Position numbers and translations under genes: made by a program
The notes under the pieces: model-generated
Database searches by the model: none
The model's input: the letters and a program-made list of their open reading frames with translations, nothing else
Told to the model about the DNA's origin: nothing
Assembly: GCF_030034735.1 (NCBI RefSeq)
Contig: NZ_CP125370.1
Coordinates: forward strand, 3,906,001 to 3,970,000
Direction of reading: 5' to 3'
Source of the DNA: Paenibacillus sp. RC334
GTDB lineage: Bacteria > Bacillota > Bacilli > Paenibacillales > Paenibacillaceae
Length of the DNA stretch: 64,000 nucleotides
Part shown: positions 12,253-14,673 of the stretch, one piece after another
Position numbering within the stretch: position 1 is the first letter of the stretch
Layout of the letters: the number at the start of each line of letters is the position of its first letter

Positions 12253-12729
12253 ATGACAATGGAAGAAGTGCTTATGCTGGAACGTAATGAGACGAAGCTC
12301 GTTGGATACTCTGTAACCGCGTCGTTAAATCAAGATCTGGAAACCGGAATTGTCGTAAGATTACGCGAAGAACTCTTTGACAAGCGTCATGAAATTGCAA
12401 ATCGATTAGATGATGACGGGATTTACTTAGTCCAAGTTTACCCGGACGGTGAATGGACGCCCGATGTTCCGTTCGTAAGTATTGTTGCGGTAGAGGTTAG
12501 CGATTTTGCACATATTCCCGAGGGATTAGTTCGTCATACGATACTGGCTGGGAAGTATGTGAAGGTCACTCATAAGGGACCTGAATCCCAAATAGATGGA
12601 ACCTATGACTCAATCCGTGATAGGGGGATCAGCGCTTCTCGCTCTTTTGATTTCGAGTATTGGACTGATATTCATTCTCTGGAACAAAAGGACAGCACGA
12701 TAGATATTTATATGCCTTGGGAAGCTTAG
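12253..12729 (+). CDS. GyrI-like effector-binding domain protein
   Basis: This 158-residue protein has the pattern of the GyrI/AraC effector-binding fold: KLVGYSVTASL near the start, a central FVSIVAVEV, IPAGKY-like IPEGLVRHTILAGKYVKVTHKGP, and the ending FDFEYWTDIHS...STIDIYMPW. Such stand-alone domains bind small hydrophobic or cationic ligands. The start is ATG 12253 behind AGGGGG; an internal in-frame ATG lies two codons on. It is divergent from the isoprenoid synthase across about 210 bp and is followed 66 bp later by the AraC/lipoprotein ORF. Confidence 0.8.
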   Translation: MTMEEVLMLERNETKLVGYSVTASLNQDLETGIVVRLREELFDKRHEIANRLDDDGIYLVQVYPDGEWTPDVPFVSIVAVEVSDFAHIPEGLVRHTILAGKYVKVTHKGPESQIDGTYDSIRDRGISASRSFDFEYWTDIHSLEQKDSTIDIYMPWEA

Positions 12730-12795
12730 TCGATGTAACAAGAGCAGAATGTACTGCTACGCATGTGTTAATTTATATTATTTCGAGGTGTTTTT

Positions 12796-14673
12796 ATGGA
12801 GTGGCTGGAAACGATCAGATTATGGAACCAAACGCCGGTTAAGGTACTGGACATTCGTCATTTTACGATGAAGCCTGGAGAGAGATTGAGTTCCTATTCC
12901 CTGCCTTCAAGCGGATTTCTATTCGCCAATCAAGGAGAAGCCAGATTAATGCTTGATAGAATTGAAACCTCATTAGCCAAGTTTCAGGTTCTCCACGGCG
13001 GAAAAGGAGCACATCTGAATATCTGGTGCTTAAACCAGCCGTTTGAATACTACCTCATTTTATACAAACCCGTTCAAGAACAAGCGGGTCAAAGTCCGTT
13101 CGAACGAGAAGATCGGATGGCTCTATTTAGACAAAACTATGCGTTTCAGGCCCTCTATCCGCTCCCCCTGATATCGCTTGTCGAACAAATGAATCACCAG
13201 TGGTCTAATAGAAATGAACTGGACAAACTGCAAGTGAATGGATTGTTCTATCAATTCGTGCATGAACACTTTCGTCAACTACAGATGAAGGAGATCAAAA
13301 TATCCGAGCCGGATCTGGCTACACAAATAGCCCAATATATTCAAGAGCGTTTTCAAAAACCAATCGCTATGGAGACGATGGCTAAACAATTTCATTACAG
13401 TACCCACTACCTCGTAAAGGTGTTTAAGCGCAAATATGGATGCAGCCCTATCGAGTATGTCGTTCAAACCCGCATCAACAGGGCCAAATCCTTGTTAGCT
13501 GAAACAGATGCTTCCATTCGGGAAGTTGCCGAAAACGTTGGTTATACCAATTTTTATTACTTTAGTAGACTTTTCAAAAAGCAAACCGGCGAAACCCCAA
13601 CACAATTTAAAATGCATAGCCTTGTTATAAGAAGTTCAACGAATACAAATTTTACACTCAAATCATTCATTGCTCCCGGATCAGGACAACGTTATATTGG
13701 TAACAATGATAATCATTATCAACATAACGCTTGGAGAGTGGACGATATGAATGTTAGTTTTAAGCCTGCTTTTGCTGTTACCCTTTTGTTCAGCTTAACA
13801 TTGCTGCTGGCAGCTTGCAGTGGCACGAGTGACGTTGCGAAGCCAATTGAAACAAGATCGTATACCGATGCACTTGGACGGCAAACGGAAATTCCTGTTC
13901 AACCCAAAAGGGCTGTTGTTATTACATACGGCGGTTATTTGCTTCCATTAGGCTTAAAACCGGTAGGTGTCAATCAGGAGATACTCGACCTTTATCCTGA
14001 CAAGATGGCTGATGTCGCTAGCATAGGCAAAGGAACAGGTAATGTCGAGGCCATTTCCGCATTGGAGCCGGATGTGATTATACTGTCGGATTTTCACGAC
14101 AAAGCAACCTTTGAGCAGTACCAAAAAATCGCCCCAACCATTGCAGTAGCATGGGGTGGTGATCCAGACGTGGTGAATACACTACGGACGTTTGGCGACA
14201 TTATGAACCGGAAAACAGAAGCAGAATCCTGGATTGCTAAGTTCGAGAAAAAATTGCAGGGCATTCGGGAACAAACTCACATCCCCATTAAAGCAGATAC
14301 TACCGCAATCTCTTTCATTATTCACAAGGGAGAGGTACTGCTTGGAGGCGAGGGCGGTACGCTCGGAAAATTGATCTACCAAGATTTCGGTTTCCAAATG
14401 CCTGAGCAATTCAAACCATATGCCGATGGCGGAACTGCTCTTTCCATGGAAGCTCTGGTCCATCGTCCGGCTGACTATTTCTTTACTCAAATGACAGATC
14501 AAGAGTTGGAGCAAACCATGCAGCTATTCAGCGAGCCTGTGTACCAAACGATTCCCGCTGTGAAAAATAATCACATTATTAATGTTTCCCGTGATAAATG
14601 GAACAATGGCCCCTACCTGGTGGATGAGGCGGTCGATTCGTTGATTGAACAAATATCTCAAATTCAGCCATAG
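12796..14673 (+). CDS. AraC regulator fused in frame to an iron-siderophore-binding lipoprotein
   Basis: One open frame of 625 residues. Residues 1-165 are a ligand-type N-terminal region. Residues 175-272 carry two AraC helix-turn-helix units (MAKQFHYSTHYLVKVFKRKYG and IREVAENVGYTNFYYFSRLFKK). Residues 273-317 are a linker encoded by promoter-like DNA with a Fur box. Met318 then starts a lipoprotein signal (lipobox LLAAC, Cys341) and a class III iron-complex-binding domain (DALGRQTEIPVQPKRAVVITYGG). The domain order resembles Bacillus subtilis Btr, but Btr has no secretion signal between its domains. Met318 has its own GGAGAG at 8-nt spacing, so two products are likely: the lipoprotein alone (13747-14673) and possibly a membrane-spanning fusion. 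Confidence 0.8.
   Translation: MEWLETIRLWNQTPVKVLDIRHFTMKPGERLSSYSLPSSGFLFANQGEARLMLDRIETSLAKFQVLHGGKGAHLNIWCLNQPFEYYLILYKPVQEQAGQSPFEREDRMALFRQNYAFQALYPLPLISLVEQMNHQWSNRNELDKLQVNGLFYQFVHEHFRQLQMKEIKISEPDLATQIAQYIQERFQKPIAMETMAKQFHYSTHYLVKVFKRKYGCSPIEYVVQTRINRAKSLLAETDASIREVAENVGYTNFYYFSRLFKKQTGETPTQFKMHSLVIRSSTNTNFTLKSFIAPGSGQRYIGNNDNHYQHNAWRVDDMNVSFKPAFAVTLLFSLTLLLAACSGTSDVAKPIETRSYTDALGRQTEIPVQPKRAVVITYGGYLLPLGLKPVGVNQEILDLYPDKMADVASIGKGTGNVEAISALEPDVIILSDFHDKATFEQYQKIAPTIAVAWGGDPDVVNTLRTFGDIMNRKTEAESWIAKFEKKLQGIREQTHIPIKADTTAISFIIHKGEVLLGGEGGTLGKLIYQDFGFQMPEQFKPYADGGTALSMEALVHRPADYFFTQMTDQELEQTMQLFSEPVYQTIPAVKNNHIINVSRDKWNNGPYLVDEAVDSLIEQISQIQP
13670..13721 (+). promoter_or_regulatory. 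Internal promoter with overlapping Fur box
   Basis: TTGCTC (13670-13675) and TATATT (13693-13698) are 17 bp apart. A perfect 7-1-7 Fur box, TGATAATCATTATCA, lies at 13707-13721 where the transcript would begin. GGAGAG (13733-13738) and ATG 13747 follow. All of this lies inside the open frame of the AraC-lipoprotein ORF. Confidence 0.8.

Follow-up and report, generated by a model that had tools for sequence, protein, structure and literature searches.

The 64,000-nucleotide stretch of the Paenibacillus sp. RC334 genome analysed here (the window) carries an open reading frame (ORF) in which an AraC-type regulator appears to run without interruption into a siderophore-binding lipoprotein, through DNA that itself looks like an iron-regulated promoter. 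To our knowledge, the means by which Gram-positive bacteria signal to their genes which siderophore is present are known for few systems. The locus raises the question of whether one short stretch of DNA serves both as protein linker and as promoter and, if so, which products such a gene would make.

One frame from regulator to lipoprotein

The full-length ORF (12796..14673, plus strand) begins with ATG and continues through 625 open codons with no internal stop, as the first-pass annotation had claimed for the passage from the AraC part into the lipoprotein; every other landmark that it had placed on the locus was also found at its position. A Shine-Dalgarno-like GAGG (12785..12788, plus strand) can be read in the sequence 7 bases 5' of this ATG. 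The encoded protein has the same layout as its relatives, namely an AraC regulator, a linker, a signal anchor with lipobox and a siderophore-binding domain. The N-terminal domain of the regulator (residues 1-170; 12796..13305, plus strand) is beta-rich and then helical in the model, is without a Pfam match and had no fold match among the 50 rows that Foldseek listed, which were all binding proteins. The AraC-type DNA-binding domain (residues 171-272 by our own profile; 13306..13611, plus strand) matches Pfam HTH_18 at residues 195-272, and is followed by a linker of 45 codons (residues 273-317; 13612..13746, plus strand). Next come a predicted hydrophobic helix (residues 324-340) and Cys341 of a LAAC lipobox (together 13765..13818, plus strand), and finally the binding domain (13819..14670, plus strand), which was assigned by Pfam and by fold, with Peripla_BP_2 matching residues 411-595. 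The PF01497 score was 79.2 bits for the whole ORF and 81.3 bits for the short product described below, both above the cut-off of 27.5.

An AlphaFold2 model built from 74 sequences (mean pLDDT 83, pTM 0.46) was mostly confident for the regulator and binding domains, rendered residues 324-340 as a helix and left residues 279-326, including most of the linker, disordered at a pLDDT of about 30-50. Hydropathy and the model thus agree in predicting one membrane helix with a lipobox between the AraC and binding parts, which is where a signal anchor had been proposed. The solved structures nearest to the binding domain by fold are FhuD2, YfiY and FtsB, and its resemblance to these in fold and sequence marks it as a predicted ferric-siderophore binder.

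The joint also holds a complete set of candidate expression signals, all on the plus strand. A -35 hexamer TTGCTC (13670..13675) is separated by a 17-base spacer from a -10 hexamer TATATT (13693..13698), and 8 bases 3' of the latter lies a Fur box (TGATAATCATTATCA, 13707..13721) that agrees with the consensus at 14/14 positions and encodes (N)DNHYQ, so that the promoter and the perfect operator announced for this joint are both present. A GGAG (13733..13736) stands 10 bases before the internal ATG of Met318, from which a short product of 308 codons would be read (13747..14673); this ribosome-binding site, described earlier as good, is there in the window but only of moderate strength. Between Met318 and Cys341 the short product has the hydrophobic N-terminal segment and lipobox cysteine of a lipoprotein. 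Fur-controlled promoters typically carry a 7-1-7 operator at a sigma-A-type promoter, and the window has this combination in the form of a perfect operator and a weak promoter. The promoter by itself matches only 8/12 hexamer positions and was absent from a generic promoter scan of the stretch, which found 9 sites where 8.4 were expected; what makes it credible is solely that such a site is retained in relatives. For the operator, shuffling gave an expectation of 0.54 Fur boxes with at most two mismatches in the 64 kb window, compared with 3 matches found at two places, and a chance origin is ruled out by this shuffling together with a coding-window control and the in-frame recurrence of the box in relatives. 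The second place in the window is another perfect Fur box (2565-2579, within a site at 2559-2579), just 5' of a gene on the minus strand (1527-2525, 332 aa) that resembles an ordinary siderophore-binding lipoprotein by sequence.

The arrangement recurs in many related bacteria

Each of the first 59 genomes searched gave some match, often through single domains only, and many full-length, stop-free matches were among those listed. A class-wide search of 398 genomes, in which three matches per genome were scored, yielded at least 87 matches across the joint among those listed, 84 of them without an internal stop and three with stops (G301, G431 and G258); the G301 copy is an intact ORF of 662 residues when read from its DNA. 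Organism names among the best 120 of 207 protein matches included Paenibacillus, Cohnella, Brevibacillus, Lysinibacillus, Psychrobacillus and Sporosarcina. The annotation of family members varies between 'AraC family transcriptional regulator' and 'ABC transporter substrate-binding protein', an inconsistency that serves as a warning.

We defined a family ORF as one matched by both the N-terminal and the DNA-binding profiles, and after identical proteins had been dropped, 146 such ORFs were obtained from 181 loci, which group into 120 clusters at 95% identity and into 91 at 90%. These ORFs comprise 135, including that of the window, with a membrane segment, a lipobox and a binding-domain match (TM-type), six that are full length without a membrane segment and five without a binding-domain match. 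In two TM-type ORFs the binding half is truncated (L057, 430 aa; L091, 523 aa), which leaves 133 full-length ones from 60 genomes, window included; counts made on the joint take in all 135. The TM-type and signal-less ORFs together number 141, from 63 genomes in five coded families. The loci were picked from best hits, so that none of these counts describes a random sample, and near-copies are counted separately except where representatives are named.

Could the continuous frame simply reflect a lost stop codon or a sequencing error in this one genome? No supporting evidence was found for such an artefact, which we consider to have virtually no chance of being correct. The two nearest protein clusters are also 625 residues long (96% identity with 20 member sequences, and 89% with 7 members from Paenibacillus polymyxa), and these, together with the 133 full-length ORFs of the same layout, refute it. 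Interruption of the frame at the joint in relatives, by a stop or a break, had been named as grounds for refutation; the only copies in which it was seen carry further damage elsewhere. Only 7/146 family ORFs are short or broken: in L050 the frame is broken at the joint and the binding half is also cut short, L051 has breaks in several positions, several stops interrupt the matches to which L167 and L170 correspond, and L171, L057 and L091 end inside the binding half. Outside this set, the G007 genome holds a copy 95% identical over residues 423-625 from which the AraC part and the joint have been deleted along with the front of the binding part; such a remnant of the window gene is found at L052 2903-3649 (L006). 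The recurrence of the layout in so many related bacteria argues that the arrangement is real and selected, and it is confirmed as something other than the quirk of a single genome.

The joint is constrained both as protein and as DNA

Selection on the encoded protein was estimated from 46 disjoint pairs of sequences. The part of the linker before the -35 hexamer gave a dN/dS of 0.48 (bootstrap 0.38-0.62) and the promoter stretch 0.61 (0.40-0.90), while the stretch from the Fur box to the start, at 0.63 (0.41-1.02), is not clearly below 1. The signal segment is far more constrained at 0.13 (0.08-0.18), and the N-terminal, DNA-binding and binding domains gave 0.20, 0.09 and 0.07, respectively. 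The ratio for the Fur box itself (1.46, 0.25-2.44) is uninformative because synonymous change there is so low (0.010, as against 0.27-0.30 in the domains).

The AraC frame was open in 133/133 joints tested, whereas the other two frames contained stops in 117/133 and 133/133, and a shuffled joint remained open in 3.5% of draws. Pairwise comparison showed no stop in the joint frame where about 32 were expected from 534 substitutions, a test that is weakened because both members of each pair had been selected as open ORFs; the 7/146 short or broken members provide a fairer one, since family membership did not demand a binding domain on the same ORF. The open AraC frame and the dN/dS below 1 rule out that the joint is ordinary intergenic DNA. 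They bear equally upon the idea that read-through of the joint is incidental and that nothing matters beyond a soluble AraC part and a lipoprotein under Fur control. The promoter, operator, ribosome site and start within the joint are what such an idea would predict, but it is at odds with the stop-free joints, even allowing for their selection as open, with the constraint on the linker before the -35 hexamer and with the retention of the whole frame in members that have no signal peptide, and we regard it as very improbable.

The same DNA carries a second layer of constraint. An in-frame Fur box scoring 11-14/14 was present in the joint of 133/135 TM-type ORFs, always in the same codon phase (frame 2), and in 126 of those 133 it lies 35-42 codons before the lipobox cysteine. 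The two remaining members, L089 and L172, have the helix and the lipobox, but their joints contain no real Fur box; in L089 one lies upstream of the ORF. Each box was placed by its best match, which biases the scores upward, and at a threshold of 12/14 or better 119/135 joints contained a box, compared with 13/719 control coding windows of 250 bases. Within the box, the third bases of its NAY codons were T in 262 cases and C in 2 among 79 members less than 90% identical, against a background of 0.690 T in the rest of these ORFs. The third codon of the box, in turn, varies among CAT, GAT, TAT and AAT (H, D, Y or N), so that the first base, which is free of the palindrome, changes the amino acid. 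Fixed wobble bases beside a variable palindrome-free base are the opposite of what protein constraint alone would produce.

The remaining signals are kept as well. A promoter score combining hexamer matches at a spacing of 16-18 with small bonuses reached the threshold of 8.5 in 63/79 representatives, compared with about 9% of 1302 control windows drawn from these ORFs, and was missed by the other 16. The -10 hexamer ends 5, 8 or 11 bases before the Fur box in 60/63 of these promoters, that is, at one-codon steps. A start codon matching that of Met318 occurs in the expected stretch of 79/79 representatives (ATG in 73, TTG in 4 and GTG in 2), and 58/79 have a Shine-Dalgarno of at least 4 bases, compared with about 10% of 2860 other in-frame start codons, a difference favoured by the choice of each start by its Shine-Dalgarno. 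As had been proposed, then, the linker doubles as a putative Fur-controlled promoter, and both the DNA-level and the protein-level constraints can be measured in its sequence.

The membrane segment, the lipobox and members without a signal peptide

Cys341 is invariant and Ala340 nearly so in an alignment of 74 members, and this conservation, along with the strong selection on the signal segment, is compatible with a split precursor. The long form would be inserted, lipidated and cut before Cys341 by signal peptidase II, leaving the AraC part anchored in the membrane or later released and the binding part as an ordinary lipoprotein; the fusion would then couple only the amounts and the place of the two parts. 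However, the short product needs a lipobox in any case, and conservation of the membrane segment exceeds that in free lipoproteins. At a binding-domain identity of 0.25-0.45, segment identity was ~0.30 among 50 TM-type representatives and ~0.16 among 29 free lipoproteins, the latter being a small set in which one cysteine call (L038) looks wrong; at a binding-domain identity of 0.45-0.60, the gap was smaller (0.37 versus 0.25). Identities expected by chance are 0.14 and 0.13.

Six members have neither lipobox nor membrane helix (L104, L110, L162, L168, L175 and L176), and in each of them a single frame of 612-665 codons stays open. Export of the binding part would require a signal peptide, so that in these members it should function within the long protein; it is the long frame that has been kept. 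That these six keep both halves in one chain suggests that the covalent link itself matters, which again speaks against a split precursor, and we consider this explanation to be unlikely, at somewhere near one chance in five.

The joint Fur boxes of the six score 8-12/14, some of them still identifiable as remnants in the proper position, and the best box upstream of each scores 11-14. A tree of 72 rows put them in two clades nested within the TM-type, on starred branches, although this was a quick method without bootstrap, with long branches among the Btr-like rows and a position for L043 inside the family that we do not trust. This topology argues that the signal-less forms were here derived from membrane forms and not the reverse. 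The first-pass annotation had suggested that Btr-like proteins might arise by loss of a stop between neighbouring genes; no intact two-gene form occurred among the loci read, and the signal-less form branching twice from within the membrane forms points in the opposite direction.

Upstream control and genomic surroundings

A Fur box both in the joint and upstream (at least 12/14, within 250 bases) was found in 84/135 TM-type ORFs. Such double occurrence would be in keeping with a gene that makes the full-length protein only, whose embedded box either has no regulatory role or forms a roadblock for the long transcript. Against this, promoter hexamers, Shine-Dalgarno and start codon are kept along with the box, and the box is weaker in the members that lack a signal peptide; we judge the explanation improbable. 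No clear Fur box precedes the full-length start of the window gene, where the best candidate scores 11/14, and the upstream scores of seven orthologues read were 8-10 in six and 13 in one. A gene for a GyrI-like/Cass2 effector-binding protein (12253-12729, plus strand) ends 66 bases 5' of the fusion gene, with which it may be cotranscribed.

The three TM-type genes of this genome all lie apart from FecCD permease genes, the nearest of which is ~6 kb from the TM-type gene at 1838547. Three other fused genes of the same genome that have no lipobox (L042, L043 and L048) adjoin separate binding-protein genes, and L042 and L048 are also near FecCD genes. When 17 fetched stretches of 13-19 kb were searched with two FecCD seeds, a FecCD gene was found near the TM-type gene in two, L053 and L067. 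In L067 (8980-11956), the end of the TM-type gene overlaps a FecCD permease gene by 23 bases, as if the lipoprotein half served the importer. Tandem pairs of TM-type genes were observed in L055, L056, L061, L079, L083, L090, L092 and L097, with an embedded Fur box of its own in each copy read. Another recurrent order, seen in L106, L107, L109 and L111, is a TM-type gene and then, ~45-50 bases further on, an AraC-binding-protein fusion of 533-535 aa that has no lipobox.

A proposed mechanism with two products

The genes share a conserved open frame, an embedded Fur promoter and start, a hydrophobic segment with lipobox, and purifying selection on linker and domains. The reading that we favour, at a probability of roughly 60%, is that one gene gives rise to two products that share a binding domain, one an AraC receptor tethered to the membrane and the other a free lipoprotein under Fur control. 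We infer that both are made, and the topology, the sensing outside the cell, the target genes and the sign of regulation would be as follows. Transcription from upstream would yield the full-length protein, with a cytosolic AraC regulator, a flexible linker, one membrane helix and the siderophore-binding domain outside. Upon iron starvation, Fur would leave the box in the linker and the embedded promoter would fire, and translation from Met318 would supply a free siderophore-binding lipoprotein for uptake. In the presence of its siderophore, the tethered regulator would increase the transcription of uptake genes. With a single binding domain common to receptor and uptake protein, specificity drift between the two would, we propose, be impossible.

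The main doubt about this two-product reading comes from the invariant lipobox cysteine, since signal peptidase II may cut the long form as well and leave no intact receptor. In addition, the disordered linker and single helix of the model offer no evident route from binding to the DNA-binding domain, which counts against a receptor. Extending the proposal to the whole family, we see about even odds that these proteins are widespread one-component membrane receptors in which a lipoprotein gene has been permanently fused to its own regulator, the linker is the Fur promoter, promoter switching sets the ratio of sensor to uptake protein, and the binding domain is shared.

A protein linker that is also an iron-controlled promoter would be a simple means of keeping sensor and uptake protein matched. 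The many natural sensor genes with linked receptors lend themselves to tests of siderophore specificity, and in the joint, constraints on DNA and on protein overlap within a short stretch that several families of Bacilli have kept.

Comparison with known systems

Btr of Bacillus subtilis is reportedly cytosolic, with no signal peptide or membrane helix between its domains. The window protein resembles it in having an AraC-type DNA-binding part and then a siderophore-binding part in one chain and in the same order, and differs from it in the helix at residues 324-340, the LAAC lipobox and the embedded Fur promoter in the joint. Btr (YbbB) has been described, in an iron and siderophore context, as an AraC regulator with a FeuA-like sensory domain (PMC9609785, PMC3896406). 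Against the Btr equivalog model NF049932, the window protein scored 106.2 bits in two stretches, far below the curated NCBIfam cut-off of 900, which is likewise missed by the Btr-like proteins L048 (160.6 bits) and L043 (132.5 bits) of the same genome. None of the three Btr-like fusions examined in this genome (L042, L043 and L048) has a lipobox after the DNA-binding part, where L048 has a short hydrophobic stretch without cysteine.

Membrane regulators of the ToxR/CadC kind have a cytosolic N-terminal DNA-binding domain, which is a winged helix, a single membrane pass and a C-terminal sensor outside. The predicted layout of the window protein is like theirs; it is unlike them in being AraC-type, in the lipobox within its membrane segment and in the internal promoter that would give the sensor domain alone. 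CadC has been described as a regulator of this kind (PMC5430869). Such proteins, termed transmembrane transcription regulators (TTRs), have been defined by a predicted DNA-binding domain and a predicted membrane region in one protein (PMC10269533), a definition that by hydropathy and model also covers the window protein; the word 'AraC' has no occurrence in the main text of that paper. The co-occurrence of HTH_18 with Peripla_BP_2 has been counted in the only open-licence paper in which both Pfam names turned up, whose passages on the subject mention no membrane segment or embedded promoter (PMC13293324), and a detailed Paenibacillus transcriptome with named transcription start sites has been published (PMC5670726). 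Within the open-licence PMC literature, we found no description of a regulator-receptor fusion with an embedded promoter.

The short product, for its part, is like the lipoproteins of FecCD-type ABC importers (FhuD2, YfiY and FtsB) in predicted fold, lipobox and a Fur box before its start, and unlike them in being the 3' half of a regulator gene that lies apart from the FecCD genes in this genome. Overall, the window protein resembles membrane one-component regulators in its layout, and it falls outside the Btr equivalog.
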